A stretch of DNA of 64,000 nt from Membranipora membranacea (Eukaryota > Bryozoa > Gymnolaemata > Cheilostomatida > Membraniporidae). The DNA is taken from contig OU612069.1 in assembly GCA_914767715.1 (NCBI GenBank), positions 9,423,387 through 9,487,386 of the forward strand, written 5' to 3'. The notes under the pieces were generated by a model. It did no database searches. It was not told where the DNA came from and worked only from the letters and a program-made list of their open reading frames with translations. Below, piece by piece: positions 19,501-64,000 of this stretch; position 1 is the stretch's first letter, and each line of letters begins with the position of its first letter. The position numbers and the translations under genes were made by a program.

Positions 19501-22171
19501 CATAATATTATGCTCCTGCCTATCCAATAATAAAATTGCTGCTTTGGCCTCAGGTCTAAGAATTTAGGCAATCTAGATCATAAGGCTTGTCAATACACTA
19601 CAGTTTTAGCCAATCAGGTTCTCACAATGCTGTGATTAGCTGAAAAGTTGTTTATTGAAATATGGTCTTACTTAAGCAAGGCATCCTGACATTGCGGGTG
19701 GCGCAAAGACAATGAGGGCTGGAACATAATACAGAGTTGAAGTAATGCAATGTCCGATCTATACTGTATTTCTATATCTTTGAACCTGATACAGCAATAA
19801 TATTTTCTTTGGGCAGAGGGGATTTAGGTTGGGTGGGTGGAGCAAGGAGTTAAAGTCTTTAACTCCTTCGGGGAGCAAGAGATTAGGTGGAGGCCTCATA
19901 CTAATGTTTTCCTTATTTCACAGGCTCTTTGATCTAGTGCTGCTGACTGATGACTTGTCTAGCGATTATCTGGAGGAGATTTCATATCATAGTCTGCTAC
20001 AGGCACTTTGCTACAACAACCAAAACAGGGAAAACTCAAGAGAAAACTTGGATTCTGTGCTCAACGAGGAGGCAACTTCTGGTAACAGCGAGAGAATTTG
20101 TCATTCACAGCTAAAGCAGGTGAATAGAGTATATTTAAATTTATTTAATATACACATCATTAATGATCAATTTACCAATGTACAACATAAAGATCATGTT
20201 TACAATAAGTGAAAAATTAAAAAATAATGTGGTCAGTCAATGGGTAAAGAGGAAAAAATTGAATATCTGTTGATCTGAGCTTTGAAAGCCTTCATTAATC
20301 ATGGATACAAAGTTTCTGTTACATACTTCACCATTACATTTGAGATCTAAAGATCAGTTCAGTTCATTCAAAACGTTACTATTCAACCACATATTATCGA
20401 CTTGACCAACATCATTGATGGTATTATTCCTTTCTGTTTCTTCTTTTTTATTTCAAAATTATTTTTCTCTGGCACTGAGTGCAAACATTTCGAATGAGAT
20501 GACTTTGGTTGTCAATAAACGTATAAATATATATATATATATACGTTTATTGACAACCAGTCCAAAAACCATTATATTTATTCATATCATGTTCAATATA
20601 TATATATATATATATATATAAATATATTGAACATGATATGAATAAAGATAATGGTTATTTTTGTAGTAAGACTCGTCAATATACCTCTATCTGAACTCTT
20701 CTTTTTCCTCTCTTCTCTACTTTAATATTTTAGTTATATTATATTACATTTTATTCTTATTTTTATTTCATTTAGTTTATTGAGGTGGCGCGAAGTCTCA
20801 CAGTAACATTTCCGGAAGATGTGAAGTCATATTTAGCTAGGTTTTACCTGGCTAGTCGACAAGTACGCAGTGAGATCGGGAATGCTATTCCAACTTCCTC
20901 TCTCAAAACTATGTGAGCTTTTCTCTTACTCCAGTTAGTTTTTATAAAGAAAACCTTAGTGTATCTAGTTAAAAATTGAACAACTTCTCACTTTAATTTG
21001 TTCTTATTTTTAAGATGAGGTTTTGTTGTCAAACCAATGAACTCACTCATTGGTCAAACAATTACCTATTTTTTGAAGCGATCCGCCATCTCAGTAAACA
21101 GGATTAAATCAGTCTAATTGAATGAATTAACTGACAGTGCGATAACATAGGATAGTCTGGCACATAAAGTGCTGTTTGTTGTAAAAGATAAATCCTTCCG
21201 ACTTTTTTATTGATAGTAAAAAATCAAAAGGAAACTCAATTATATCGCCTCGAATATGTTCCATATCCATGTTACCTAAATTAGCCTGCTAACCCTAATT
21301 ATAACATTAAATTATATCATAGTATCTATATTATATATATATATATATATGTTATATATATATATATATATATAACTCAGTGCTGTGTTGTAATCACATA
21401 AGTATATAGAGCAGACTGGCAGAGAGAAACCAAACTTTATCATGATTTCTTGATGCAGCTGTGTATACAGTATACTATAGTGATGTTTAATCTTAAACAA
21501 TTGTTACTTGGCAATGAGTTCACCTTCCTCAATTATTTTAGGCTATTAGCATATTAAATTGTTGTTGTTTAATGAATCATGAGTCATGTATGCATCTTTT
21601 AACCTAGCAAATAATGTCAGGAGTGGTAGTTGTCCTCTCTCCTGTCATGGGGACATAACTGTTGACTTCGATTCATGATAGGATTTTTTTGTCCATGATG
21701 CGTACAAGTTTTTAGCAAGTATATACATACAAGCAACACAACGACATCTGATTATCAGATTTGGATTTTCAAGTTAATGTTGAATGCATAAAAATACCTG
21801 TTGATAATTCCATTGTTAATTGTGAATAATAATTATATTTATATAAATGTAATAGTTATGGATAAAAAGTATGAATTTTTTTAACATACTTTATGCAGTC
21901 ATTTATTCTTTTGTGGATTCGATGATGTTGTTATATTAGCTGTTTATTTTTGTATATTCTCATACTTATGATTAAAATTCTCCACAGGTTATCTTTAGCG
22001 GAGGCCCACGCGCGACTCTCACTGCGATCTGTAGTGACCCAAGAGGACGCCCTTTCAGCTATACTCCTCTATGAGGAATGCGTGACATCACAGACCCATC
22101 ACTCTGTGCTGAACGTCACACATGAGCCTCACTGGAACCCGTCTACTGTACAATACTATCTAACACAACAG
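877..22171 (+). CDS. MCMDC2: MCMDC2 orthologue, 17 chained coding exons, 3' end missing
   Basis: Spliced gene encoding an MCM domain-containing protein 2. In animals this divergent MCM relative works in meiotic recombination and double-strand break repair; the fly relatives belong to the mei-MCM group (family knowledge). Seen here: 17 exons with GT-AG borders whose phases all match, giving 676 codons without a stop, close to the usual full length of about 680. Order: N-terminal MCM domain (about 1-144), C4 zinc finger (C148, C151, C184, C187), OB-fold part (about 200-282), AAA+-like domain (about 317-570), C-terminal lid helices (about 570-650). The Walker A region (V366-G367-Q-E-T) lacks GK[ST], the Walker B region reads V-V-P-D429-I-N, and the arginine-finger SRFD is replaced by Q504-L-F-D, so ATPase activity is doubtful, as known for MCMDC2. 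The final short exon should lie beyond the tandem array, outside the window. Intron 3 contains an antisense gene. Confidence 0.93.
1332..1389 (+). CDS. MCMDC2: MCMDC2 exon 2 (residues 36-55)
   Basis: Acceptor cttttctag before 1332 and donor gtgagt at 1390. It enters in phase 0 and leaves in phase 1. It encodes VSVVPLYIDINILELLDVC, which corresponds to the strand and helix of the MCMDC2 N-terminal domain that precedes the first conserved 'LG' segment. Confidence 0.82.
1659..1694 (+). repeat. MCMDC2: 19-bp tandem duplication at the exon 3 acceptor
   Basis: ggccgattctattttta (1659) and ggccgattctattttag (1678) are adjacent copies. Only the second ends in the AG used as the 3' splice site; the first has AA instead. 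Confidence 0.75.
1695..1753 (+). CDS. MCMDC2: MCMDC2 exon 3 (residues 55-74)
   Basis: Acceptor ctattttag before 1695 and donor gtaagt at 1754. It encodes ATLGQKVLQDRRSSGQLFQR, matching the family pattern of LG-x3-L followed by a phenylalanine-glutamine helix end. The acceptor lies in a 19-bp tandem duplication (1659-1694). The intron that follows is about 8.3 kb and holds the nested antisense gene. Confidence 0.85.
2022..2231 (-). CDS. BED-finger gene, last coding exon with coiled coil (residues 220-288, stop)
   Basis: Acceptor cgttttag at 2232, stop TGA at 2024-2022. It begins SPAQTRVQPPKRSAAP, followed by a helix rich in L, N, E, R and Q (LSQLVNKLQTIVTSRNNEIE and EEHNRRLHLINQREQETL), ending VRKKLGV. 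The heptad-like hydrophobic spacing indicates a dimerising coiled coil. Confidence 0.82.
   Translation of the reverse strand, partial: SPAQTRVQPPKRSAAPVDLDQCNLSQLVNKLQTIVTSRNNEIEEHNRRLHLINQREQETLSAVRKKLGV
2022..8298 (-). CDS. BED-type zinc-finger protein gene nested antisense in MCMDC2 intron 3
   Basis: Six coding exons on the minus strand, all with GT-AG borders and matching phases, give a protein of about 288 residues. Seen: a BED finger near the N-terminus (C32 and C35, with histidines at 54 and 59 completed across the exon 1-2 junction as H-L-K-S-S-H). A Ser/Thr/Gly-rich middle (about 88-132) and an acidic segment (DEESDVDQSEDY) follow, then a possible SUMOylation site (I-K-Q-E), a basic patch (RAQKRPRDPE) and a C-terminal coiled coil of about 45 residues. 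BED fingers bind DNA and occur in chromatin-boundary proteins and in genes derived from hAT transposases (family knowledge). There is no transposase domain here, so a small chromatin or transcription factor is likeliest (inference). The start is the first ATG of the BED exon; an acceptor at 8307 implies an upstream exon that I could not find. Confidence 0.85.
2943..3054. mobile_element. Foldback/MITE-like element, family 1 copy 1
   Basis: Inverted arms gctcaaactgtgtcgggata and tatcccgacacagtttgag enclose about 60 bp. The inner sequence gctggtagtagcat and ttatcaacc is shared with the element at 5334-5447, so the two belong to one small nonautonomous family. Confidence 0.65.
3082..3240 (-). CDS. 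BED-finger gene, coding exon 5 (residues 167-219)
   Basis: Acceptor ctttggtag and donor gtacac. 53 whole codons, phase 0 at both ends: polar LKEAKTVASTSKDNSNHTDN, then ELVTDWSRTARAQKRPRDPE with a basic patch that could be a nuclear localisation signal. Confidence 0.78.
3825..3925 (-). CDS. BED-finger gene, coding exon 4 (residues 133-166)
   Basis: Acceptor attgttgcag and donor gtagat. It encodes an acidic segment DEESDVDQSEDY followed by STGIKQEEQVNYYDESWLA. The I-K-Q-E motif fits the SUMO consensus (hydrophobic-K-x-E); its use is inference. Confidence 0.8.
4144..4279 (+). mobile_element. tRNA-derived SINE, diverged copy C
   Basis: Shares the head (gaaggtagctcagttgg, A box at 4149-4160) and the tail (gctccggcctgcttacc, then ggtctcacctt) with copies A and B. 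The middle is shorter and has lost a clear B box, so it looks older. Confidence 0.6.
5089..5200. repeat. 12-bp minisatellite
   Basis: About nine head-to-tail copies of tttgcgtctagc with variants tttgcgtctcgc, tttgcatctcgc and tttgcgtctcac. It lies in an intron of both genes. Confidence 0.85.
5334..5447. mobile_element. Foldback/MITE-like element, family 1 copy 2
   Basis: The ends gcgctaaaacttggttggga and cgacgatgtttaagcgc form imperfect terminal inverted repeats of about 35 bp, continuing through gctggtagtagcat / atgctactaccagc. It ends about 25 bp from the donor side of nested-gene exon 3. Related to 2943-3054. Confidence 0.65.
5474..5608 (-). CDS. BED-finger gene, coding exon 3 (residues 88-133)
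   Basis: Acceptor cattactag and donor gtactg. It encodes a low-complexity Ser/Thr/Ala/Gly-rich stretch (AAHSGASTSGAPVSTVPP) ending TVHDIT plus a split codon. It is probably a disordered linker. Phases agree with exons 2 and 4. Confidence 0.78.
6417..6510 (-). CDS. BED-finger gene, coding exon 2 (residues 57-88)
   Basis: Acceptor gttcttacag and a strong donor gtaagt. It encodes SSHPGTIQLMDDYQRRHAYN, then LVIPPSFGKPT. Its first histidine completes the BED finger begun in exon 1. Phase 0 in, phase 1 out. Confidence 0.82.
6618..6653. repeat. Short hairpin inside a larger foldback
   Basis: atctggaaagt and actttccagat are 11-bp inverted arms around a 14-bp loop. Flanking gagtctgg and ccagactg suggest a wider foldback of about 90 bp. 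Confidence 0.5.
7009..7200 (+). repeat. Dispersed repeat, copy 1
   Basis: About 190 bp found again in reverse orientation at 16618-16810. Shared blocks include agaagattgggctgcccct, gaatgcatcctagaggt and taatcggccatt. The element type is unknown; no coding sequence. Confidence 0.7.
7855..8030 (+). mobile_element. tRNA-derived SINE, copy A
   Basis: Begins ggagtaggaggtggctcag. A pol III A box (tggctcagttgg, 7866-7877) and a B box (ggttcaaatcc, 7920-7930) have tRNA-like spacing. The tail contains cgacctgcctgcaaac and gcaacctggcgcag. Copies B (12924-13094) and C (4144-4279) share head and tail, so this is a dispersed SINE family and not a functional tRNA gene. It lies in nested-gene intron 1 / MCMDC2 intron 3. 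Confidence 0.8.
8131..8298 (-). CDS. BED-finger gene, coding exon 1 (residues 1-56)
   Basis: Begins MGRSSGVMPAIHKYLEHF and carries the cysteine pair of the BED finger (FRCICLHCG). The exon itself starts at 8306 after the acceptor aattgcag, with ATG at 8298-8296. Two in-frame donors are possible: after 8131 (gtcaag) or after 8125 (gttgct). The first is preferred because it gives the BED spacing H-x4-H when joined to exon 2. Confidence 0.82.
8307..10084. other. Rest of MCMDC2 intron 3; likely promoter side of the nested gene
   Basis: About 1.8 kb between the BED-finger exon and MCMDC2 exon 4. The nested gene's first, probably noncoding, exon and promoter should be here, because its BED exon begins at an acceptor. 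I could not locate them. An inverted repeat (cccataatgca at 9937, tgcattatggg at 10025) is the only clear structure. Confidence 0.45.
10085..10188 (+). CDS. MCMDC2: MCMDC2 exon 4 (residues 75-109)
   Basis: Acceptor cttttcag before 10085 and donor gtaggt at 10189. It begins FVYLVLTATKTL and ends VTNVPRLT plus a split glycine codon. The pattern fits the MCMDC2 N-terminal domain (hydrophobic strand, 'KTL', then a 'L-x-VTNVP' strand). Phase 0 in, phase 2 out, matching exons 3 and 5. Confidence 0.85.
11178..11282 (+). CDS. MCMDC2: MCMDC2 exon 5 (residues 109-144)
   Basis: Acceptor gccgccag before 11178 and a strong donor gtaagt at 11283. It encodes the strand VQGTSVMRGKITEISSPMKY, the MCM pattern 'V-x-GTV-R-x-S-x-I-x-P', and ends at KYT just before the zinc finger. 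An inverted repeat (11055-11068 with 11089-11102) lies shortly upstream. Confidence 0.88.
11328..11590. repeat. Diverged direct repeats in intron 5
   Basis: aatttggccttggcttagta at 11328 and aatttggccttagcttagta at about 11536 are each followed by cttttgtag and catccaaaagtagt. A third partial copy around 11455-11490 keeps only the tail. Confidence 0.6.
12568..12740 (+). CDS. MCMDC2: MCMDC2 exon 6, zinc-finger exon (residues 144-202)
   Basis: Acceptor acttgacag before 12568. It carries the MCM zinc finger: CYFC (C148, C151), a further cysteine at 156, and CTVC (C184, C187), with the intervening FKYVRIHIPGA strand typical of MCMDC2. Two donors are possible; gtatta at 12741 is chosen over gtatca at 12734 because it keeps the frame into exon 7 (SYRRVS-D-KLIL). 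A 32-bp tandem repeat starts 20 bp beyond the donor. Confidence 0.85.
12761..12912. repeat. 32-bp tandem repeat just after MCMDC2 exon 6
   Basis: About 4.7 copies of a 32-bp unit that starts agtctgataccgggtatagt and ends atagtctaagtt. Copies start at 12761, 12793, 12825, 12857 and 12889. It begins 20 bp inside intron 6. Confidence 0.85.
12924..13094 (-). mobile_element. tRNA-derived SINE, copy B
   Basis: Reverse-strand copy of the SINE at 7855. Read on the minus strand it starts ggagtaggaggtgcttcag, has an A-box-like cttcagttggttagagcg, a degraded B box and the same tail (ccgacctgcctgcaaacg, gcaacctggcgcag). In MCMDC2 intron 6, next to a 32-bp tandem repeat. Confidence 0.78.
13459..13596 (+). 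CDS. MCMDC2: MCMDC2 exon 7 (residues 202-248)
   Basis: A strong polypyrimidine acceptor (ttttttttcag) precedes 13459 and the donor gtgaga is at 13597. It encodes KLILHLNIMN, then ELDPGFVRQRMRIVCR. This is the middle of the OB-fold region, between the zinc finger and the conserved 'GETVTVTG' strand in exon 8. Confidence 0.82.
14040..14195 (-). mobile_element. Possible second tRNA-derived SINE
   Basis: On the minus strand an A-box-like tggcgtagatgg is followed about 40 bp later by gctcgaatcccagtc, which resembles a B box and T arm. The sequence differs from the SINE at 7855. Only one copy is visible in the window, so the call is tentative. Confidence 0.4.
14330..14433 (+). CDS. MCMDC2: MCMDC2 exon 8, OB-fold strand (residues 248-282)
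   Basis: Acceptor atatttcag before 14330; donor gtctgt at 14434 is weak. It encodes SIGETVTVTGRLVYDN, equivalent to the MCM 'GD-x-V-x-V-x-G' strand, and ends VYLE. Phase 2 completion in, phase 0 out. Confidence 0.83.
14492..14506 (+). repeat. Poly-G run in intron 8
   Basis: A homopolymer of about 15 G, shortly after exon 8. Possible G-quadruplex seed and a likely sequencing-length error site. Confidence 0.85.
15012..15111 (+). CDS. MCMDC2: MCMDC2 exon 9 (residues 283-316)
   Basis: Acceptor ctgttacag before 15012 and donor gtaagg at 15112. It encodes ANTVVQHQVEEQA and LSRLPEPMQQLYK, the variable linker between the OB fold and the AAA+-like domain. Confidence 0.82.
15420..15473 (+). CDS. MCMDC2: MCMDC2 exon 10 (residues 316-334)
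   Basis: A short 54-bp exon with acceptor tctttgtag and donor gtaagt. It encodes RRESMWSFALAMAYLVG, the first helix of the AAA+-like domain, which in MCMDC2 reads as a Trp/Phe-containing helix before the 'P-x-G' segment. Phase fits both neighbours. Confidence 0.83.
16276..16352 (+). CDS. MCMDC2: MCMDC2 exon 11 (residues 334-359)
   Basis: Acceptor ctttgtag before 16276 and donor gtgagt at 16353. It encodes CISPAGTFVKLKLSLLLSLL, which matches the MCMDC2 signature 'P-x-G-x3-x-LKL-x-LL-x-SL' where canonical MCMs have the helix before Walker A. It was one of the most diagnostic exons for naming the gene. Confidence 0.88.
16531..16555. repeat. (TA)n microsatellite
   Basis: A TA dinucleotide run in MCMDC2 intron 11. 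Confidence 0.85.
16618..16810 (-). repeat. Dispersed repeat, copy 2
   Basis: Reverse-complement relative of 7009-7200, in MCMDC2 intron 11 and ending only about 27 bp before exon 12. On the plus strand it contains aatggccgattag, aggatgcattctagttttct and ggggcagcccaatcttct. Confidence 0.7.
16837..16999 (+). CDS. MCMDC2: MCMDC2 exon 12, degenerate Walker A (residues 360-414)
   Basis: Acceptor actctgtag before 16837 and donor gtaatg at 17000. It encodes GLNVLCVGQETLIIRRLLAY, aligned to the MCM 'LLVGDPGTAKSQLL' region but with no lysine or Ser/Thr of a Walker A loop. It ends AQYFIS plus a split glycine. A dispersed repeat (16618-16810) ends just before the acceptor. Confidence 0.88.
17113..17540. 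mobile_element. Long-inverted-repeat (foldback) element
   Basis: Arms of about 105 bp (17118-17222 and 17432-17539) are near-perfect reverse complements: cagtccgcacatgcgcagag at one end pairs with ctctgcgcatgtgcggactg at the other. The roughly 210-bp centre carries no recognisable transposase, so it is a nonautonomous DNA element inside MCMDC2 intron 12. Confidence 0.7.
17701..17790 (+). CDS. MCMDC2: MCMDC2 exon 13, degenerate Walker B (residues 414-444)
   Basis: Acceptor tattttacag before 17701 and donor gtgtgc at 17791. It encodes GGSSLNAHHSVCVVPDINAL, equivalent to MCM 'G-x-L-x-A-x-x-G-x-x-C-x-IDEFDKM'. D429 is present but the following acidic residue is replaced by Ile-Asn. It continues into the helix TKQENIHLER. 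Confidence 0.87.
18092..18272 (+). CDS. MCMDC2: MCMDC2 exon 14 (residues 444-504)
   Basis: Acceptor atttatag before 18092 and donor gtgagt at 18273. It encodes the segment LEYGKVLQSVPG and then a strand, VQCKIWACAD, equivalent to the MCM 'R-x-S-x-L-AA-x-NP' strand. A polar stretch (SRTNSKAKTGTSRG) follows, ending NPCYN. Confidence 0.83.
18273..19923 (+). other. MCMDC2 intron 14, nothing coding seen
   Basis: A 1.65-kb intron. It contains a short TA run near 18826, a perfect small palindrome at 19845-19869 (aaggagttaaag / ctttaactcctt) and otherwise unique AT-rich sequence. I see no conserved protein on either strand. Confidence 0.5.
19924..20119 (+). CDS. MCMDC2: MCMDC2 exon 15, sensor/arginine-finger region (residues 504-569)
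   Basis: Acceptor tatttcacag before 19924 and donor gtgaat at 20120. It encodes QLFDLVLLTDDLSSDYLEE, clearly the MCM 'SRFDL-x-F-x-x-x-D-x-x' strand but with Leu where the arginine finger sits. The rest (NNQNRENSRENLD and beyond) is polar and probably disordered. Confidence 0.87.
20508..20558. repeat. AT-centred palindrome 1
   Basis: Arms ggttgtcaataaacgtat and atacgtttattgacaacc are perfect inverted repeats around a TA-rich centre. Cruciform-prone; in MCMDC2 intron 15. Confidence 0.85.
20569..20654. repeat. AT-centred palindrome 2
   Basis: Arms 20569-20600 and 20623-20654, sharing tcatatcatgttcaatata and its complement, flank a (TA)n centre. It lies only 10 bp from palindrome 1. Confidence 0.85.
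20776..20912 (+). CDS. MCMDC2: MCMDC2 exon 16 (residues 570-615)
   Basis: Acceptor atttag before 20776 and donor gtgagc at 20913. It encodes FIEVARSLTVTFPEDVKSYL, then ARFYLASRQVR and PTSSLKT. These are the C-terminal helices of the MCM core, with the MCMDC2-type 'YYLASRR' motif here as FYLASRQ. Confidence 0.88.
20913..21987 (+). other. MCMDC2 intron 16, AT microsatellite
   Basis: A 1.07-kb intron with an interrupted (TA)n tract at about 21327-21374. No coding potential or mobile element recognised. Confidence 0.5.
21327..21374. repeat. Interrupted (TA)n microsatellite
   Basis: Two TA runs separated by a single G, forming an imperfect self-complementary tract in MCMDC2 intron 16. Confidence 0.85.
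21988..22171 (+). CDS. MCMDC2: MCMDC2 exon 17, parent of the tandem array (residues 615-676)
   Basis: Acceptor ctccacag before 21988 and donor gtaagg at 22172. It encodes LSLAEAHARLSLRSVV, the MCM lid helix 'L-x-L-SEA-x-AR-x-x-L', then DALSAILLYEEC, ending NPSTVQYYLTQQ. The last 57 bp (from about 22115) are the coding part of the minisatellite unit that fills the rest of the window. The exon copy is identical to the array consensus over at least 53 bp. A last coding exon with the final 20-30 residues and the stop is expected beyond position 64000. Confidence 0.92.
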
Positions 22172-22178
22172 GTAAGGG
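22172..22178 (+). promoter_or_regulatory. MCMDC2: Authentic 5' splice site of MCMDC2 intron 17
   Basis: CAG|GTAAGG, a near-consensus U1 site, ends exon 17. Nearly every downstream unit repeats it as CAG|GTAAGA or CAG|GTAAGG, so this donor faces hundreds of competing copies of itself. Confidence 0.85.
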
Positions 22179-31000: not shown

Positions 31001-34000
31001 CTCACTGTAACCCGTCTACTGTACAATACTATCTAACACAATAGGTAAGAGGGGGAGGTAACACATGAGCCTCACTGGAACCCATCTACTGTACAATACT
31101 ATCTAACACAACAGGTAAGAGGGGGAGGTAACACATGAGCCTCACTGTAACCTGTCTACTGTACAATACTATCTAACACAATAGGTAAGAGGGGGAGGTC
31201 ACACATGAGCCTCACTGTAACCCGTCTACTGTACAATACTATCTAACACAATAGGTAAGAGGGGGAGGTAACACATGAGCCTCACTGGAACCCATCTACT
31301 GTACAATACTATCTAACACAACAGGTAAGAGGGGGAGGTAACACATGAGCCTCACTGTAACCTGTCTACTGTACAATACTATCTAACACAACAGGTAAGA
31401 GGGGGGAGGTAACACATGAGCCTCACTGTAACCCGTCTACTGTACAATACTATCTAACACAATAGGTAAGAGGGGGAGGTAACACATGAGCCTCACTGGA
31501 ACCCATCTACTGGACAATACTATCTAACACAACAGGTAAGAGGGGGAGGTCACACATGAGCCTCACTGGAACCTGTCTACTGTACAATACTATCTAACAC
31601 AACAGGTAAGAGGGGGGAGGTCACACATGAGCCTCACTGGAACCTGTCTACTGTACAATACTATCTAACACAACAGGTAAGAGCGGGAGGTCACACATGA
31701 GCCTCACTGTAACCCGTCTACTGTACAATACTATCTAACACAACAGGTAAGAGGGGGAGGTAACACATGAGCCTCACTGGAACCCGTCTACTGTACAATA
31801 CTATCTAACACAACAGGTAAGAGGGGGGAGGTCACACATGAGCCTCACTGGAACCTGTCTACTGTACAATACTATCTAACACAACAGGTAAGAGGGGGGA
31901 GGTCACACATGAGCCTCACTGGAACCTGTCTACTGTACAATACTATCTAACACAACAGGTAAGAGCGGGAGGTCACACATGAGCCTCACTAGAACCCGTC
32001 TACTGTACAATACTATCTAACACAACAGGTAAGAGCGGGAGGTAACACATGAGCCTCACTGGAACCCGTCTACTGTACAATACTATCTAACACAACAGGT
32101 AAGAGGGGGAGGTAACACATGAGCCTCACTGGAACCCGTCTACTGTACAATACTATCTAACACAACAGGTAAGAGGGGGAGGTCACACATGAGCCTCACT
32201 GTAACCCGTCTACTGTACAATACTATCTAACACAATAGGTAAGACGGGGGAGGTAACACATGAGCCTCACTGGAACCCATCTACTGTACAATACTATCTA
32301 ACACAACAGGTAAGAGGGGGAGGTAACACATGAGCCTCACTGTAACCCGTCTACTGGACAATACTATCTAACACAACAGGTAAGAGGGGGAGGTCACACA
32401 TGAGCCTCACTGGAACCTGTCTACTGTACAATACTATCTAACACAACAGGTAAGAGGGGGAGGTAACACATGAGCCTCACTGTAACCTGTCTACTGTACA
32501 ATACTATCTAACACAACAGGTAAGAGGGGGGGGAGGTCTCACATGAGGCTCACTGGAACCCATCTACTGTACAATACTATCTAACACAACAGGTAAGAGG
32601 GGGAGGTAACACATGAGCCTCACTGTAACCTGTCTACTGTACAATACTATCTAACACAACAGGTAAGAGGGGGGGGAGGTCTCACATGAGCCTCACTGTA
32701 ACCTGTCTACTGTACAATACTATCTAACACAACAGGTAAGAGGGGGAGGTCACACATGAGCCTCACTGGAACCTGTCTACTGTACAATACTATCTAACAC
32801 AACAGGTAAGAGGGGGAGGTAACACATGAGGCTCACTGGAACCCGTCTACTGGACAATACTATCTAACACAACAGGTAAGAGGGGGAGGTAACACATGAG
32901 CCTCACTAGAACCCGTCTACTGTACAATACTATCTAACACAACAGGTAAGGGGGGAGGTCACACATGAGCCTCACTGTAACCCGTCTACTGTACAATACT
33001 ATCTAACACAACAGGTAAGAGGGGGAGGTAACACATGAGCCTCACTGGAACCTGTCTACTGTACAATACTATCTAACACAACAGGTAAGAGGGGGAGGTA
33101 ACACATGAGCCTCACTGGAACCTGTCTACTGTACAATACTATCTAACACAACAGGTAAGAGGGGGGAGGTAACACATGAGCCTCACTGGAACCCGTCTAC
33201 TGTACAATACTATCTAACACAACAGGTAAGAGCGGGAGGTCACACGTGAGCCTCACTGGAACCCTTCTACTGTACAATACTATCTAACACAACAGGTAAG
33301 AGGGGGGAGGTCACACATGAGCCTCACTGGAACCTGTCTACTGTACAATACTATCTAACACAACAGGTAAGAGGGGGGGGAGGTCTCACATGAGGCTCAC
33401 TGGAACCCGTCTCCTGTACAATACTATCTAACACAACAGGTAAGAGGGGGAGGTCTCACATGAGCCTCACTGGAACCTGTCTACTGTACAATACTATCTA
33501 ACACAACAGGTAAGAGGGGGAGGTAACACATGAGGCTCACTAGAACCCGTCTACTGTACAATACTATCTAACACAACAGGTAAGAGGGGGAGGTAACACA
33601 TGAGCCTCACTGGAACCTGTCTACTGTACAATACTATCTAACACAACAGGTAAGAGGGGGGAGGTAACACATGAGCCTCACTGGAACCCGTCTACTGTAC
33701 AATACTATCTAACACAACAGGTAAGAGCGGGAGGTCACACGTGAGCCTCACTGGAACCCTTCTACTGTACAATACTATCTAACACAACAGGTAAGAGGGG
33801 GGAGGTCACACATGAGCCTCACTGGAACCTGTCTACTGTACAATACTATCTAACACAACAGGTAAGAGGGGGAGGTAACACATGAGGCTCACTGGAACCC
33901 GTCTACTGTACAATACTATCTAACACAACAGGTAAGAGGGGGAGGTCTCACATGAGCCTCACTGGAACCTGTCTACTGTACAATACTATCTAACACAACA

Positions 34001-46000: not shown

Positions 46001-46092
46001 TACTATCTAACACAACAGGTAAGAGGGGGAGGTCACACATGAGCCTCACTAGAACCCGTCTACTGTACAATACTATCTAACACAACAGGTAA

Positions 46093-46292
46093 NNNNNNNN
46101 NNNNNNNNNNNNNNNNNNNNNNNNNNNNNNNNNNNNNNNNNNNNNNNNNNNNNNNNNNNNNNNNNNNNNNNNNNNNNNNNNNNNNNNNNNNNNNNNNNNN
46201 NNNNNNNNNNNNNNNNNNNNNNNNNNNNNNNNNNNNNNNNNNNNNNNNNNNNNNNNNNNNNNNNNNNNNNNNNNNNNNNNNNNNNNNNNNNN
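46093..46292. other. Assembly gap of exactly 200 N
   Basis: 200 undetermined bases between ...acaggtaa and gagcgggagg.... The two flanks join into a normal unit. The paralogous block at 58426-59836 is continuous across the equivalent point, with offsets of 12,785 before and 12,585 after the gap. Confidence 0.95.
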
Positions 46293-49200: not shown

Positions 49201-52200
49201 CTGTCTACTGTACAATACTATCTAACACAACAGGTAAGAGGGGGGAGGTAACACATGAGCCTCACTGTAACCCGTCTACTGTACAATACTATCTAACACA
49301 ATAGGTAAGAGGGGGAGGTAACACATGAGCCTCACTGGAACCCATCTACTGGACAATACTATCTAACACAACAGGTAAGAGGGGGAGGTCACACATGAGC
49401 CTCACTGGAACCTGTCTACTGTACAATACTATCTAACACAACAGGTAAGAGGGGGGAGGTCACACATGAGCCTCACTGGAACCTGTCTACTGTACAATAC
49501 TATCTAACACAACAGGTAAGAGCGGGAGGTCACACATGAGCCTCACTGTAACCCGTCTACTGTACAATACTATCTAACACAACAGGTAAGAGGGGGAGGT
49601 AACACATGAGCCTCACTGGAACCCGTCTACTGTACAATACTATCTAACACAACAGGTAAGAGGGGGAGGTCACACATGAGCCTCACTGTAACCCGTCTAC
49701 TGTACAATACTATCTAACACAATAGGTAAGAGGGGGAGGTAACACATGAGCCTCACTGGAACCCATCTACTGTACAATACTATCTAACACAACAGGTAAG
49801 AGGGGGAGGGAACACATGAGCCTCACTGTAACCCGTCTACTGGACAATACTATCTAACACAACAGGTAAGAGGGGGAGGTCACACATGAGCCTCACTGGA
49901 ACCTGTCTACTGTACAATACTATCTAACACAACAGGTAAGAGGGGGAGGTAACACATGAGCCTCACTGTAACCTGTCTACTGTACAATACTATCTAACAC
50001 AACAGGTAAGAGGGGGGGGAGGTCTCACATGAGGCTCACTGGAACCCATCTACTGTACAATACTATCTAACACAACAGGTAAGAGGGGGAGGTAACACAT
50101 GAGCCTCACTGTAACCTGTCTACTGTACAATACTATCTAACACAACAGGTAAGAGGGGGGGGAGGTCTCACATGAGCCTCACTGTAACCTGTCTACTGTA
50201 CAATACTATCTAACACAACAGGTAAGAGGGGGAGGTCACACATGAGCCTCACTGGAACCTGTCTACTGTACAATACTATCTAACACAACAGGTAAGAGGG
50301 GGAGGTAACACATGAGGCTCACTGGAACCCGTCTACTGGACAATACTATCTAACACAACAGGTAAGAGGGGGAGGTAACACATGAGCCTCACTAGAACCC
50401 GTCTACTGTACAATACTATCTAACACAACAGGTAAGGGGGGAGGTCACACATGAGCCTCACTGTAACCCGTCTACTGTACAATACTATCTAACACAACAG
50501 GTAAGAGGGGGAGGTAACACATGAGCCTCACTGGAACCTGTCTACTGTACAATACTATCTAACACAACAGGTAAGAGGGGGAGGTAACACATGAGCCTCA
50601 CTGGAACCTGTCTACTGTACAATACTATCTAACACAACAGGTAAGAGGGGGGAGGTAACACATGAGCCTCACTGGAACCCGTCTACTGTACAATACTATC
50701 TAACACAACAGGTAAGAGCGGGAGGTCACACGTGAGCCTCACTGGAACCCTTCTACTGTACAATACTATCTAACACAACAGGTAAGAGGGGGGAGGTCAC
50801 ACATGAGCCTCACTGGAACCTGTCTACTGTACAATACTATCTAACACAACAGGTAAGAGGGGGGGGAGGTCTCACATGAGGCTCACTGGAACCCGTCTCC
50901 TGTACAATACTATCTAACACAACAGGTAAGAGGGGGAGGTCTCACATGAGCCTCACTGGAACCTGTCTACTGTACAATACTATCTAACACAACAGGTAAG
51001 AGGGGGAGGTAACACATGAGGCTCACTAGAACCCGTCTACTGTACAATACTATCTAACACAACAGGTAAGAGGGGGAGGTAACACATGAGCCTCACTGGA
51101 ACCTGTCTACTGTACAATACTATCTAACACAACAGGTAAGAGGGGGGAGGTAACACATGAGCCTCACTGGAACCCGTCTACTGTACAATACTATCTAACA
51201 CAACAGGTAAGAGCGGGAGGTCACACGTGAGCCTCACTGGAACCCTTCTACTGTACAATACTATCTAACACAACAGGTAAGAGGGGGGAGGTCACACATG
51301 AGCCTCACTGGAACCTGTCTACTGTACAATACTATCTAACACAACAGGTAAGAGGGGGAGGTAACACATGAGGCTCACTGGAACCCGTCTACTGTACAAT
51401 ACTATCTAACACAACAGGTAAGAGGGGGAGGTCTCACATGAGCCTCACTGGAACCTGTCTACTGTACAATACTATCTAACACAACAGGTAAGAGGGGGAG
51501 GTAACACATGAGGCTCACTAGAACCCGTCTACTGTACAATACTATCTAACACAACAGGTAAGAGGGGGAGGTAACACATGAGCCTCACTGGAACCCGTCT
51601 ACTGTACAATACTATCTAACACAACAGGTAAGAGGGGGGAGGTCACACATGAGCCTCACTGGAACCCATCTACTGTACAATACTATCTAACACAACAGGT
51701 AAGAGGGGGAGGTAACACATGAGCCTCACTGTAACCCGTCTACTGGACAATACTATCTAACACAACAGGTAAGAGGGGGAGGTCACACATGAGCCTCACT
51801 GGAACCTGTCTACTGTACAATACTATCTAACACAACAGGTAAGAGGGGGAGGTAACACATGAGGCTCACTGGAACCCATCTACTGTACAATACTATCTAA
51901 CACAACAGGTAAGAGGGGGAGGTAACACATGAGCCTCACTGTAACCTGTCTACTGTACAATACTATCTAACACAACAGGTAAGAGGGGGGGGAGGTCTCA
52001 CATGAGGCTCACTGGAACCCATCTACTGTACAATACTATCTAACACAACAGGTAAGAGGGGGAGGTAACACATGAGCCTCACTGTAACCTGTCTACTGTA
52101 CAATACTATCTAACACAACAGGTAAGAGGGGGGGGAGGTCTCACATGAGCCTCACTGTAACCTGTCTACTGTACAATACTATCTAACACAACAGGTAAGA

Positions 52201-55200
52201 GGGGGAGGTCACACATGAGCCTCACTGGAACCTGTCTACTGTACAATACTATCTAACACAACAGGTAAGAGGGGGAGGTAACACATGAGGCTCACTGGAA
52301 CCCGTCTACTGGACAATACTATCTAACACAACAGGTAAGAGGGGGAGGTAACACATGAGCCTCACTAGAACCCGTCTACTGTACAATACTATCTAACACA
52401 ACAGGTAAGGGGGGAGGTCACACTTGAGCCTCACTGTAACCCGTCTACTGTACAATACTATCTAACACAACAGGTAAGAGGGGGAGGTAACACATGAGCC
52501 TCACTGGAACCTGTCTACTGTACAATACTATCTAACACAACAGGTAAGAGGGGGAGGTAACACATGAGCCTCACTGGAACCTGTCTACTGTACAATACTA
52601 TCTAACACAACAGGTAAGAGGGGGGAGGTAACACATGAGCCTCACTGGAACCCGTCTACTGTACAATACTATCTAACACAACAGGTAAGAGCGGGAGGTC
52701 ACACGTGAGCCCCACTGGAACCCTTCTACTGTACAATACTATCTAACACAACAGGTAAGAGGGGGGAGGTCACACATGAGCCTCACTGTAACCTGTCTAC
52801 TGTACAATACTATCTAACACAACAGGTAAGAGGGGGAGGTAACACATGAGCCTCACTGGAACCCGTCTTCTGTACAATACTATCTAACACAACAGGTAAG
52901 AGGGGGAGGTCACACATCAGCCTCACTAGAACCCGTCTACTGTACAATACTATCTAACACAACAGGTAAGAGGGGGAGGTAACACATGAGCCTCACTGGA
53001 ACCTTTCTACTGTACAATACTATCTAACACAACAGGTAAGAGGGGGGAGGTCTCACATGAGCCTCACTGGAACCCGTCTACTATACAATACTATCTAACA
53101 CAACAGGTAAGGGGGGGATATCTCACATGAGCCTCACTGTAACCTGTCTACTGTACAATACTATCTAACACAACAGGTAAGAGGGGGAGGTCACACATGA
53201 GCCTCACTGGAACCTGTCTACTGTACAATACTATCTAACACAACAGGTAAGAGGGGGAGGTAACACATGAGGCTCACTGGAACCTGTCTACTGTACAATA
53301 CTATCTAACACAACAGGTAAGAGGGGGGAGGTCACACATGAGCCTCACTGAAACCCGTCTACTGTACAATACTATCTAACACAACAGGTAAGAGGGGGAG
53401 GTAACACATGAGCCTCACTGGAACCCGTCTACTGTACAATACTATCTAACACAACAGGTAAGAGGGGGAGGTCACACATGAGCCTCACTGTAACCCGTCT
53501 ACTGTACAATACTATCTAACACAACAGGTAAGAGGGGGGAGGTCTCACATGAGCCTCACTGGAACCCGTCTACTGTACAATACTATCTAACACAACAGGT
53601 AAGAGGGGGAGGTAACACATGAGCCTCACTAGAACCCGTCTACTGTACAATACTATCTAACACAACAGGTAAGAGGGGGAGGTCACACATGAGCCTCACT
53701 GTAACCCGTCTACTGTACAATACTATCTAACACAACAGGTAAGAGGGGGGAGGTCTCACATGAGCCTCACTGGAACCCGTCTACTGTACAATACTATCTA
53801 ACACAACAGGTAAGAGGGGGAGGTAACACATGAGCCTCACTGTAACCTGTCTACTGTACAATACTATCTAACACAACAGGTAAGAGGGGGGAGGTCACAC
53901 ATGAGCCTCACTGGAACCCGTCTACTGTACAATACTATCTAACACAACAGGTAAGAGGGGGAGGTAACACATGAGCCTCACTGGAACCCGTCTACTGTAC
54001 AATACTATCTAACACAACAGGTAAGAGGGGGGAGGTCACACATGAGCCTCACTGGAACCCGTCTACTGTACAATACTATCTAACACAACAGGTAAGAGGG
54101 GGGAGGTCACACATGAGCCTCACTGGAACCTGTCTACTGTACAATACTATCTAACACAACAGGTAAGAGGGGGGAGGTAACACATCAGCCTCACTAGAAC
54201 CCGTCTACTGTACAATACTATCTAACACAACAGGTAAGAGGGGGAGGTAACACATGAGCCTCACTGGAACCCGTCTACTGTACAATACTATCTAACACAA
54301 CAGGTAAGGGGGGAGGTCACACATGAGCCTCACTGGAACCTGTCTACTGTACAATACTATCTAACACAACAGGTAAGAGGGGGAGGTAACACATGAGCCT
54401 CACTGGAACCTGTCTACTGTACAATACTATCTAACACAACAGGTAAGAGGGGGGAGGTCACACATGAGCCTCACTGGAACCTGTCTACTGTACAATACTA
54501 TCTAACACAACAGGTAAGAGGGGGAGGTAACACATGAGCCTCACTGGAACCCGTCTACTGTACAATACTATCTAACACAACAGGTAAGAGGGGGGAGGTC
54601 ACACATGAGCCTCACTGGAACCCGTCTACTGTACAATACTATCTAACACAACAGGTAAGAGGGGGAGGTAACACATGAGCCTCACTGGAACCTGTCTACT
54701 GTACAATACTATCTAACACAACAGGTAAGAGGGGGGAGGTCACACATGAGCCTCACTGGAACCTGTCTACTGTACAATACTATCTAACACAACAGGTAAG
54801 AGGGGGAGGTAACACATGAGCCTCACTGGAACCTGTCTACTGTACAATACTATCTAACACAACAGGTAAGAGGGGGAGGTAACACATGAGCCTCACTGGA
54901 ACCCGTCTACTGTACAATACTATCTAACACAACAGGTAAGAGGGGGGAGGTCACACATGAGCCTCACTGGAACCTGTCTACTGTACAATACTATCTAACA
55001 CAACAGGTAAGAGGGGGAGGTAACACATGAGCCTCACTGGAACCCGTCTACTGTACAATACTATCTAACACAACAGGTAAGAGGGGGAGGTCACACATGA
55101 GCCTCACTGGAACCCGTCTACTGTACAATACTATCTAACACAACAGGTAAGAGGGGGAGGTAACACATGAGCCTCACTGGAACCCGTCTACTGTACAATA

Positions 55201-58200
55201 CTATCTAACACAACAGGTAAGAGGGGGGAGGTCACACATGAGCCTCACTGGAACCTGTCTACTGTACAATACTATCTAACACAACAGGTAAGAGGGGGAG
55301 GTAACACATGAGCCTCACTGGAACCCGTCTACTGTACAATACTATCTAACACAACAGGTAAGAGGGGGGAGGTCACACATGAGCCTCACTGGAACCTGTC
55401 TACTGTACAATACTATCTAACACAACAGGTAAGAGGGGGGAGGTCACACATGAGCCTCACTGGAACCCGTCTACTGTACAATACTATCTAACACAACAGG
55501 TAAGAGGGGGAGGTAACACATGAGCCTCACTGGAACCCTTCTACTGTACAATACTATCTAACACAACAGGTAAGGGGGGAGGTCTCACATGAGCCTCACT
55601 GGAACCCGTCTACTGTACAATACTATCTAACACAACAGGTAAGAGGGGGAGGTAACACATGAGCCTCACTGGAACCTGTCTACTGTACAATACTATCTAA
55701 CACAACAGGTAAGGGGGGAGGTCTCACATGAGCCTCACTGGAACCCGTCTACTGTACAATACTATCTAACACAACAGGTAAGAGGGGGAGGTCACACATC
55801 AGCCTCACTGGAACCCGTCTACTGTACAATACTATCTAACACAACAGGTAAGAGGGGGAGGTAACACATGAGCCTCACTTGAACCCGTCTACTGTACAAT
55901 ACTATCTAACACAACAGGTAAGAGGGGGGAGGTCACACATGAGCCTCACTGGAACCCGTCTACTGTACAATACTATCTAACACAACAGGTAAGGGGGGGA
56001 GGTAACACATGAGCCTCACTGGAACCCGTCTACTGTACAATACTATCTAACACAACAGGTAAGAGGGGGAGGTAACACATGAGCCTCACTGGAACCCGTC
56101 TACTGTACAATACTATCTAACACAACAGGTAAGAGGGGGGAGGTCACACATGAGCCTCACTGGAACCCGTCTACTGTACAATACTATCTAACACAACAGG
56201 TAAGAGGGGGAGGTCACACATCAGCCTCACTAGAACCCGTCTACTGTACAATACTATCTAACACAACAGGTAAGAGGGGGAGGTAACACATGAGCCTCAC
56301 TGGAACCCGTCTACTGTACAATACTATCTAACACAACAGGTAAGAGGGGGAGGTAACACATGAGCCTCACTGGAACCCGTCTACTGTACAATACTATCTA
56401 ACACAACAGGTAAGAGGGGGAGGTAACACATGAGCCTCACTAGAACCCGTCTACTGTACAATACTATCTAACACAACAGGTAAGAGGGGGAGGTAACACA
56501 TGAGCCTCACTGGAACCCTTCTACTGTACAATACTATCTAACACAACAGGTAAGGGGGGAGGTCTCACATGAGCCTCACTGGAACCCGTCTACTGTACAA
56601 TACTATCTAACACAACAGGTAAGGGGGGGAGGTCTCACATGAGCCTCACTGGAACCCGTCTACTGTACAATACTATCTAACACAACAGGTAAGAGGGGGA
56701 GGTAACACATGAGGCTCACTGGAACCCTTCTACTGTACAATACTATCTAACACAACAGGTAAGGGGGGAGGTCTCACATGAGCCTCACTGGAACCCGTCT
56801 ACTGTACAATACTATCTAACACAACAGGTAAGAGGGGGAGGTAACACATGAGCCTCACTGGAACCTGTCTACTGTACAATACTATCTAACACAACAGGTA
56901 AGGGGGGAGGTCTCACATGAGCCTCACTGGAACCCGTCTACTGTACAATACTATCTAACACAACAGGTAAGGGGGGGGAGGTCACACATGAGCCTCACTG
57001 GAACCTGTCTACTGTACAATACTATCTAACACAACAGGTAAGAGGGGGAGGTAACACATGAGCCTCACTGGAACCTGTCTACTGTACAATACTATCTAAC
57101 ACAACAGGTAAGAGGGGGAGGTAACACATGAGCCTCACTGGAACCCGTCTACTGTACAATACTATCTAACACAACAGGTAAGGGGGGGAGGTCTCACATG
57201 AGCCTCACTGGAACCTGTCTACTGTACAATACTATCTAACACAACAGGTAAGAGGGGGAGGTAACACATGAGCCTCACTGGAACCTGTCTACTGTACAAT
57301 ACTATCTAACACAACAGGTAAGAGGGGGGAGGTCACACATGAGCCTCACTGGAACCCGTCTACTGTACAATACTATCTAACACAACAGGTAAGAGGGGGA
57401 GGTAACACATGAGCCTCACTGGAACCTGTCTACTGTACAATACTATCTAACACAACAGGTAAGAGGGGGGAGGTCACACATGAGCCTCACTGTAACCCGT
57501 CTACTGTACAATACTATCTAACACAACAGGTAAGAGGGGGAGGTAACACATGAGCCTCACTGGAACCTGTCTACTGTACAATACTATCTAACACAACAGG
57601 TAAGAGGGGGGAGGTCACACATGAGCCTCACTGGAACCCGTCTACTGTACAATACTATCTAACACAACAGGTAAGAGGGGGGAGGTCACACATGAGCCTC
57701 ACTGGAACCCGTCTACTGTACAATACTATCTAACACAACAGGTAAGAGGAGGGAGGTCACACATGAGCCTCACTGGAACCTGTCTACTGTACAATACTAT
57801 CTAACACAACAGGTAAGGGGGGGGGAGGTAACACATGAGCCTCACTGGAACCCGTCTACTGTATAATACTATCTAACACAACAGGTAAGAGGGGGGAGGT
57901 CACACATGAGCCTCACTGGAACCCGTCTACTGTACAATACTATCTAACACAACAGGTAAGAGGGGGGAGGTCTCACATGAGCCTCACTGGAACCCGTCTA
58001 CTGTACAATACTATCTAACACAACAGGTAAGAGGGGGAGGTAACACATGAGCCTCACTGGAACCTGTCTACTGTACAATACTATCTAACACAACAGGTAA
58101 GAGGGGGGATGTCTCACATGAGCCTCACTGGAACCCGTCTACTGTACAATACTATCTAACACAACAGGTAAGAGGGGGGAGGTAACACATGAGCCTCACT

Positions 58201-61200
58201 GGAACCCGTCTACTGTACAATACTATCTAACACAACAGGTAAGAGGGGGGATGTCTCACATGAGCCTCACTGGAACCCGTCTACTGTACAATACTATCTA
58301 ACACAACAGGTAAGAGGGGGGAGGTCACACATGAGCCTCACTGAAACCCATCTACTGTACAATACTATCTAACACAACAGGTAAGGGGGGGGGAGGTCAC
58401 ACATGAGCCTCACTGGAACCCGTCTAGTGTACAATACTATCTAACACAACAGGTAAGGGGGAGGTCTCACATGAGCCTCACTGGAACCCATCTACTGTAC
58501 AATACTATCTAACACAACAGGTAAGGGGGGGAGGTCACACATGAGCCTTACTGGAACCTGTCTACTGTACCATACTATCTAACACAACAGGTAAGGGGGG
58601 GGATATCTCACATGAGCCTCACTGTAACCCGTCTACTGTACAATACTATCTAACACAGCAGGTAAAGGGGGGGGGGGGTCACACATGAGCCTCACTGGAA
58701 CCCGTCTACTGAACAATACTATCTAACACAACAGGTAAGAGGGGAGGTCACACATGAGCCTCACTGGAACCCGTCTACTGTACAATACTATCTAACACAA
58801 CAGGTAAGAGGGGGAGGTCACACATGAGCCTCACTAGAACCCGTCTACTGTACAATACTATCTAACACAACAGGTAAGAGCGGGAGGTCACACGTGAGCC
58901 TCACTGGAACCCTTCTACTGTACAATACTATCTAACACAACAGGTAAGAGGGGGAGGTAACACATGAGCCTCACTAGAACCCGTCTACTGTACAATACTA
59001 TCTAACACAACAGGTAAGAGGGGGAGGTAACACATGAGGCTCACTGGAACCCGTCTACTGTACAATACTATCTAACACAACAGGTAAGAGGGGGGAGGTC
59101 ACACATGAGCCTCACTGTAACCTGTCTACTGTACAATACTATCTAACACAACAGGTAAGAGGGGGAGGTAACACATGAGCCTCACTGGAACCCGTCTTCT
59201 GTACAATACTATCTAACACAACAGGTAAGAGGGGGAGGTCACACATCAGCCTCACTAGAACCCGTCTACTGTACAATACTATCTAACACAACAGGTAAGA
59301 GGGGGAGGTAACACATGAGGCTCACTGGAACCTGTCTACTGTACAATACTATCTAACACAACAGGTAAGAGGGGGAGGTCACACATCAGCCTCACTAGAA
59401 CCCGTCTACTGTACAATACTATCTAACACAACAGGTAAGAGGGGGAGGTCACACATCAGCCTCACTAGAACCCGTCTACTGTACAATACTATCTAACACA
59501 ACAGGTAAGAGGGGGGAGGTCACACATGAGCCTCACTGGAACCTGTCTACTGTACAATACTATCTAACACAACAGGTAAGAGGGGGAGGTCACACATGAG
59601 CCTCACTGGAACCTGTCTACTGTACAATACTATCTAACACAACAGGTAAGAGGGGGAGGTAACACATGAGGCTCACTGGAACCCGTCTACTGTACAATAC
59701 TATCTAACACAACAGGTAAGAGGGGGGAGGTCACACATCAGCCTCACTAGAACCCGTCTACTGTACAATACTATCTAACACAACAGGTAAGAGGAGGGAG
59801 GTAACACATGAGCCTCACTGGAACCCGTCTACTGTACAATACAATCTAACACAACAGGTAAGAGGGGGAGGTAACACATGAGGCTCACTGGAACCTGTCT
59901 ACTGTACAATACTATCTAACACAACAGGTAAGAGGGGGAGGTCACACATCAGCCTCACTAGAACCCTTCTACTGTACAATACTATCTAACACAACAGGTA
60001 AGAGGGGGAGGTCACACATCAGCCTCACTAGAACCCGTCTACTGTACAATACTATCTAACACAACAGGTAAGAGGGGGGAGGTCACACATGAGCCTCACT
60101 GGAACCTGTCTACTGTACAATACTATCTAACACAACAGGTAAGAGGGGGAGGTCACACATGAGCCTCACTGGAACCTGTCTACTGTACAATACTATCTAA
60201 CACAACAGGTAAGAGGGGGAGGTAACACATGAGGCTCACTAGAACCCGTCTACTGTACAATACTATCTAACACAACAGGTAAGAGGGGGGAGGTCACACA
60301 TCAGCCTCACTAGAACCCGTCTACTGTACAATACTATCTAACACAACAGGTAAGAGGGGGGAGGTAACACATGAGCCTCACTGGAACCCGTCTACTGTAC
60401 AATACTATCTAACACAACAGGTAAGAGGGGGAGGTAACACATGAGCCTCACTGGAACCTGTCTACTGTACAATACTATCTAACACAACAGGTAAGAGAGG
60501 GGAGGTAACACATGAGCCTCACTGGAACCTGTCTACTGTACAATACTATCTAACACAACAGGTAAGAGGGGGAGGTAACACATGAGCCTCACTGGAACCC
60601 GTCTTCTGTACAATACTATCTAACACAACAGGTAAGAGGGGGAGGTCACACATCAGCCTCACTAGAACCCGTCTACTGTACAATACTATCTAACACAACA
60701 GGTAAGAGGGGGAGGTAACACATGAGCCTCACTGGAACCTGTCTACTGTACAATACTATCTAACACAACAGGTAAGAGGGGGGAGGTCTCACATGAGCCT
60801 CACTGGAACCCGTCTACTATACAATACTATCTAACACAACAGGTAAGGGGGGGATATCTCACATGAGCCTCACTGTAACCTGTCTACTGTACAATACTAT
60901 CTAACACAACAGGTAAGAGGGGGAGGTCACACATGAGCCTCACTGGAACCTGTCTACTGTACAATACTATCTAACACAACAGGTAAGAGGGGGAGGTAAC
61001 ACATGAGGCTCACTGGAACTCGTCTACTGTACAATACTATCTAACACAACAGGTAAGAGGGGGAGGTCTCACATGAGCCTCACTGGAACCTGTCTACTGT
61101 ACAATACTATCTAACACAACAGGTAAGGGGGGGGGAGGTAACACATGAGCCTCACTGGAACCCGTCTACTGTATAATACTATCTAACACAACAGGTAAGA

Positions 61201-64000: not shown

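Follow-up and report, generated by a model that had tools for sequence, protein, structure and literature searches.

In the bryozoan Membranipora membranacea we found an exon-intron boundary that has been multiplied several hundred times in tandem within the intron that it opens. The gene concerned probably encodes an MCMDC2-like MCM protein, and the repeated unit joins the end of its second-last coding exon to the exon's own 5' splice site and to the G-rich beginning of the following intron. The boundary array was detected in a stretch of 64,000 bp, hereafter the window (C5:9423387-9487386, C5 being chromosome 5), and was followed up in the whole assembly (339,339,785 bases searched in 18 contigs). 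A sponge origin of the DNA was rejected because AGR codons of the mitochondrial COX1 stand where serine is expected. The multiplication of the boundary is real, and the same array was found at the same boundary in seven head-to-tail gene copies on one chromosome, with unit numbers from 4 to about 649. The gene in the window is the seventh and last of these and is called copy 7 below.

Structure and extent of the array

The second-last coding exon of copy 7 occupies 21988-22171 on the + strand of the window, with an acceptor reading ...CTCCACAG, a donor reading CAG/GTAAGG (the slash marks the exon end) and a match to the MCM_lid domain. Its final 57 nt (22115-22171) form the first unit of the array and are followed by their own donor, CAACAG/GTAAGG, and a run of G. 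From there Tandem Repeats Finder (TRF) reported one single array to the end of the window (22115-64000, + strand) with a period of 70 bp, 594.7 copies, 93% matches and a score of 70909. Cyclic alignment divided the same stretch into 595 segments, 592 of them free of N; 327 segments were 70 bp and 167 were 71 bp long. The consensus of the array is the same as the exon over these 57 nt. As the first segment consists of the exon end with its donor, and the consensus is the exon's own sequence, the exon-boundary nature of the unit is not a matter of chance. Units are highly similar to each other, with mean deviations from the consensus of 1.2 to 2.1 positions in blocks of 35 units. Long stretches are even identical, the longest being 6,069 bp at 32325-38393, which recurs at 49811-55879, also on the + strand and 249 units further on.

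The original prediction had described the unit as the last 57 bp of the exon joined to its splice donor and G-rich intron start, present in some 590 copies over more than 41 kb of the window and distinct from generic satellite DNA. The cyclic alignment and the consensus match bear out the composition of the unit, and the 592 N-free segments bear out its number and extent. A generic satellite was rejected because the unit holds exon and donor sequence and because an exact 27-mer taken from it was confined to the seven arrays. Runs of at least four G occurred 597 times in array 7; a reading of the array as G-quadruplex DNA was set aside, with canonical four-run motifs found just 9 times in the whole of it. 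A scan of window positions 1-24000 against Rfam gave no matches.

The array had also been said to have no visible end. This is true within the window, whereas sequence fetched beyond it shows the end of the array at window coordinate 67,810 (C5:9491196), which is 3.8 kb further on. There the array gives way to about 750 bp of ordinary intron, after which come TTGTAG and the final exon at 68,564, which in copy 7 keeps the reading frame (NDVGIETLKTLVDNFCKTHCSSSIEE-stop). With one final exon downstream of the array, the exon that ends in unit 1 is the second-last exon of the gene.

Seven gene copies with seven arrays

When the downstream flank of copy 7 was searched in the genome, it matched seven genes on C5, all on the + strand (40 of 45 candidates scored). 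The N-terminal exon region matched the same seven genes, again all on the + strand; in this search 40 of 4285 candidates were scored, and further weak copies are possible. All seven genes, in a cluster of about 0.37 Mb, carry the array at the same boundary. Counting N-free units of at least 60 nt, and including the exon's own, there are 19, 6, 6, 4, 93, 269 and 646 units in copies 1 to 7. Three more slots lie at a gap of N in copy 7, which brings its total to about 649. The arrays span 1.4, 0.43, 0.43, 0.30, 6.6, 18.9 and 45.7 kb, respectively. The exact 27-mer of the unit had 394 matches genome-wide, all in forward orientation and all within the seven arrays (10, 3, 3, 1, 44, 120 and 213 in copies 1 to 7); this search was for exact matches, and inexact copies elsewhere were not sought. 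An event at a single locus was thus rejected, and the array of the window is not unique: six further copies with 4 to 269 units lie upstream on C5.

The penultimate exon is open in all seven copies, and so is the final exon (six copies by string search, copy 4 by alignment). Between copies 1 and 7, ten exon pieces showed 19 synonymous and 13 replacement changes of codons, and their aligned parts were free of gaps and stops; one piece was aligned over just 57 of its 96 nt. Given about three replacement sites for each synonymous site, these numbers point to selection for function, and copies 1 and 7 both appear to be retained genes. The comparison of complete exon pieces covered these two copies and, in part, copy 5; in copies 2, 3, 4 and 6 reading began at the penultimate exon. 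As a separate observation, copy 6 (C5 ~9366180-9368876) has the N-terminal region most divergent from copy 7 (78-94% identity in pieces, the other copies mostly 94-98%), yet the downstream flank closest to it.

Identity of the host gene

Nine further coding pieces of the gene lie upstream on the + strand of the window, at 12572-12733, 13461-13595, 14329-14442, 14704-14799, 15012-15110, 16837-16959, 17703-17789, 18109-18213 and 19925-20119. Not all of their ends are fixed, and the pieces are partly co-linear with MCM helicases. The MCM AAA-lid domain (PF17855) was matched with 23.3 bits (E 9.4e-5), which is under the curated cut-off of 27.4. Searches of the PDB gave weak matches to MCM9 and an archaeal MCM (E 0.011-0.012), with further weak stretches in co-linear order. 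In these weak alignments the Walker A motif GDPGVAKS stands opposite GQETLIIR in the bryozoan protein, and the Walker B motif IDEF opposite VPDI. The lack of the usual residues at both positions fits MCMDC2, whose Walker A and B motifs are degenerate. The host is therefore named here as a gene for an MCMDC2-like MCM protein and a probable meiosis gene. The proposal of an MCMDC2-like gene with several hundred copies of the unit holds, the name being suggested by the weak MCM matches and the degenerate Walker positions.

Founding and growth of the array

We consider it quite likely that the array is a neutral and unstable intronic minisatellite of the type known as mirage in amphioxus, which would have been founded by duplication of the boundary, inherited through gene duplication, enlarged by unequal exchange and spliced out from the first donor. 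The breakpoints of the unit suggest how it might have been founded. All seven copies have GTCA at the start of the exon-side breakpoint. The intron-side breakpoint reads GTCATCTG in copies 2, 5, 6 and 7, so that GTCA is present there in four of the five copies in which this end of the array is undeleted. The founding event might thus have been one single 70-bp duplication between GTCA in the exon and GTCA just past the G-run of the intron. Since all seven copies have the array at the same place, this event would have preceded the seven-fold head-to-tail gene duplication or would have spread across it.

Subsequent growth would have taken place by unequal exchange or replication slippage within each array, and occasional exchange between gene copies would have added to the differences in array length, from 4 to about 649 units. 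Unit variants present as a single copy cluster at the edges of array 7: the two leftmost bins have 40 and 22 of 65, the rightmost bin 25 of 65 and the bins between them 0 to 7 of 65. Variants concentrated at the edges, together with identical blocks of up to 6,069 bp, are the pattern expected from unequal exchange. Most of the repeat units would have no function.

The reading frame agrees with a splice that would join the first donor to the final exon, the array being predicted to leave as part of the intron. That the first donor is probably the one used is suggested by its position, as only this donor is tied to a real exon. When the frame of copies 1 to 7 is read on past the exon, a stop is reached after 20, 8, 20, 32, 8, 7 and 8 codons, respectively. 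In six copies this stop precedes the second donor, so that a protein made from any later donor would be truncated and lack the last 26 residues.

Several observations weigh against this account as a whole or against parts of it. In copy 3 the intron breakpoint reads TTCATCTG, with TTCA as the motif, and in copies 1 and 4 that side is missing. Growth may also have proceeded through rolling-circle or break-induced replication, and gene conversion can homogenise repeats as unequal exchange does. Finally, the first donor is not clearly stronger than the others; in copy 7 its score is 12.0, the median is 11.2, and 16% of units score equally well or better. In copy 4 (C5:9269521-9269819, 4 units) the frame is open through the second donor, which could be used without a stop and would add 24 in-frame codons of duplicated exon end.

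Exchange between gene copies

The flanks of copy 7 differ in their nearest relative. Upstream of the array copy 7 was 99.7% identical to copy 5 (690 bp) and 94.6% to copy 6 (686 bp), whereas downstream copy 6 was the closer one, with 98.7% identity over 1161 bp, and copy 5 the more distant one, with 94.3% over 739 bp. The near-identity of copies 5 and 7 spans about 1 kb upstream, with 99.6 and 99.8% in bins of 500 bp and 97.9% before them; that of copies 6 and 7 extends for several kb downstream, interrupted by large insertions. Judged by these flanks, copy 7 is a mosaic that resembles copy 5 before the array and copy 6 after it.

The array itself showed a related pattern on its left side. Of 22 cases in copy 7 of a variant found in copy 5 and not in copy 6, 15 lay within the first 50 units, in contrast to 1 of 219 cases for variants found in copy 6 and not in copy 5 (Fisher 1e-17, a guide only because neighbouring units are related and not independent). 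The longest run of units in common order between copies 5 and 7 was 4, compared with a mean of 2.1 and a maximum of 3 in 100 shuffles. Copies 6 and 7 showed no common order beyond that of the shuffles, their longest run being 3 (shuffles: mean 3.3, maximum 6). As this run length is within the shuffled range, the right part of array 7 shares variants with copy 6 and not their order. A gene that is a mosaic across its array suggests that exchange between genes probably passed through the array of copy 7.

Such exchange raises the question of whether the array has a part in shaping the gene family. As a recombination hub, the homology within the array would drive unequal exchange among the seven copies. 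The different nearest relatives of the two flanks and the copy-5-specific variants in the first 50 units would agree with this. However, near-identical 500-bp bins were also found away from the array, both between copies 5 and 7 (99.8, 99.2 and 99.1%) and between copies 6 and 7 (98.4%, upstream), so that exchange is not special to the array, and copies 6 and 7 have no unit order in common beyond that of the shuffles. We therefore regard a hub function as unlikely. Slightly less doubtful, and offered as a tentative idea, is that the boundary array might serve as a shared tract of homology by which 5' and 3' halves of genes are swapped. Array length, gene copy number and mosaicism would then evolve together, and splicing would tolerate hundreds of equal donors because only the first has a real exon.

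Unit variation and splicing

An in-frame stop was present in the 57-nt part of 107 of 647 units of copy 7. Over all arrays the distinct single-site variants comprised 26 synonymous, 72 replacement and 7 stop changes, out of 37, 124 and 10 possible ones, respectively. The units thus gave no sign of protein constraint and would not be translated.

The splice donor, on the other hand, was kept in most units. GT was retained in 638 of 647 units in copy 7, in all 269 in copy 6 and in 82 of 94 in copy 5; a second count, sensitive to small insertions, gave 631 of 645, 268 of 269 and 75 of 93. The longer motif CAGGTAAG was retained in 591 of 645 units in copy 7 and in 254 of 269 in copy 6. This retention might be taken to mean that the array acts in splicing, its many CAG/GTAAG sites serving as decoys for U1 or as recursive-splicing ratchet points of the 46-kb intron. 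The presence of CTAAC just 5' of CAG in the consensus unit would also suit such a role. However, donor bases were kept no better than many other columns of the unit, and since these other columns are kept too, we read the retention of GT as homogenisation, which explains the conservation, and not as selection on the donor. In addition, four of the gene copies have just 4 to 19 units.

In ratchet points CAG directly precedes GTAAG, an acceptor with its polypyrimidine tract being joined to a donor. The array unit resembles them in having CAG followed by GTAAG. It differs from them in that, by eye, no polypyrimidine or acceptor tract precedes CAG, the unit reading ATACTATCTAACACAACAG before GTAAG. 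It also differs in that the sites stand in tandem by the hundreds. A role of the array in splicing therefore appears very unlikely.

If the array is removed from the first donor, the splicing machinery would have to choose the first among some 650 near-identical donors. The seven genes, with 4, 6, 6, 19, 93, 269 and about 649 donors and with matched flanks in one genome, represent a natural dose series for donor choice and intron growth. RNA-seq data from the same colony are public (ERR6464929; PMC10290214).

Soundness of the assembly

The array of copy 7 contains a scaffold gap of 200 N at 46093-46292 and is therefore split over two contigs. The assembly (tzMemMemb1.1, 339 Mb, 11 chromosomes) was made from 66-fold HiFi reads of DNA sheared to an average of 12-20 kb, using hifiasm and Hi-C scaffolding (PMC10290214). 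The gap, the fragment size compared with an array of 45.7 kb and the presence of identical blocks of 6,069 bp could suggest an artefact, in which a short array, or one from elsewhere, was inflated or wrongly joined to the gene.

We consider this highly improbable. The junctions of exon with array and of array with intron were without N in all seven gene copies, as were the entire arrays of 6.6 and 18.9 kb in copies 5 and 6. Each contig of copy 7 moreover anchors a long array by itself, the left one with 24 kb joined to the exon and the right one with 21.5 kb joined to the intron tail. The contig ends also meet without offset when aligned to an intact part of the array at 58578-59177: the 300 bases preceding the gap are those of 58578-58877 and the 300 bases following it those of 58878-59177, with no base missing or doubled. 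The left 300 bases match exactly at 40243 as well, so that the join could be placed at more than one point of the array. We take both the junctions and the scale to be real, and the exact unit number of copy 7 is uncertain because the array is longer than the reads. A joining of the array to the gene by misassembly, which the original prediction had named as the finding that would speak against it, is unlikely in view of the N-free junctions in all seven copies and the abutting contig ends.

That the gene captured a satellite which existed before and turned it into its exon end, which the identity of array consensus and exon over 57 nt would also allow, seems extremely improbable. The 27-mer was found only in the seven arrays (in a search limited to exact matches), all seven genes have the exon part of the unit in frame with the final exon, and the donor on the intron side of the unit belongs to the gene itself.

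Further features of the region

A second minisatellite is present in the window at 12760-12912, with a 32-bp unit in 4.8 copies, about 26 nt past the exon at 12572-12733. In gene copy 4 (C5:9258448-9259595) this stretch was matched at 10 overlapping places. A 12-bp tandem repeat in 9.8 copies was reported by TRF at 5087-5204, and a dispersed repeat at about 13950-14198 had many matches of about 80% identity on many chromosomes, among the matches listed. An open reading frame at 8116-8319 on the - strand encodes a BED zinc finger (PF02892; 22.6 bits against a cut-off of 20.6) and is perhaps the remnant of a DNA transposon. Downstream, at window coordinates 67900-264000, TRF gave eighteen entries with a period of at least 8 and at least 3 copies.

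Comparison with known systems

Tandem repeats across an exon-intron boundary were named mirages in amphioxus, where they have been described from Adh3, the globin genes BflGb6 and BflGb9 and troponin C, with similar repeats in PGBD5 (PMC3087553, PMC3902484). The mirages in Adh are credited there to Canestro et al. 2002. The unit in Adh3 is 10-72 bp long (PMC3087553), and BflGb6 has 6 and 3 units in two haplotypes, by which normal splicing is seemingly undisturbed (the globin paper among PMC3087553 and PMC3902484). As far as these descriptions go, the bryozoan arrays share with mirages that the unit spans the exon-intron boundary of its host, here as the last 57 nt of the exon with the donor and the G-run in all seven copies, that many units retain splice signals and that the unit is similar in size to that of Adh3. 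By its sequence the array is built in the way that defines a mirage. That it occurs in a bryozoan and not in a cephalochordate is a difference of range and not of structure. In contrast to the 6 and 3 units of BflGb6, however, 4 to about 649 units are present here, which makes the longest array roughly a hundredfold longer in units. Unlike what is described for amphioxus, the arrays are also shared by seven related genes arranged in tandem, and the largest array gives rise to an intron of about 46 kb.

Human genes in segmental duplications are also comparable in that the number of minisatellite units differs between recent paralogs and that some of the repeats are located at exon-intron boundaries (PMC2812944). 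Variable repeats in that survey, taken over all of them, consist on average of four units of 30 bp. The human boundary repeats may create new introns, whereas the Membranipora array is located within an intron that has its splice sites in the gene copies with few units as well. The SmPoMuc mucin genes of Schistosoma mansoni, as described in PMC2576457, resemble the present family in being arranged in tandem, in having a repeat number individual to each gene (1 to about 20 exon-bearing repeats) and in exchange between genes. Their unit, unlike that of the array, is about 1 kb long, comprises a whole exon with its flanking introns and contributes to the protein.

The available portions of the open-licence literature on amphioxus and on human duplicated genes contained no boundary repeats with hundreds of units; in those of the amphioxus huntingtin paper (PMC2206037) tandem repeats are mentioned and no boundary array was met. 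The original prediction had known of no described case with a splice site and coding end amplified to this copy number. The kind of array is described, as the amphioxus mirages and the human boundary repeats show, and the copy number stands out against these sources, with about 649 units compared with 6 and 3 or an average of 4. What is unusual here is the scale and the animal group, the Bryozoa. Boundary arrays, which were named and studied in amphioxus, are thus now found in a lophotrochozoan, and there at the size of a satellite.

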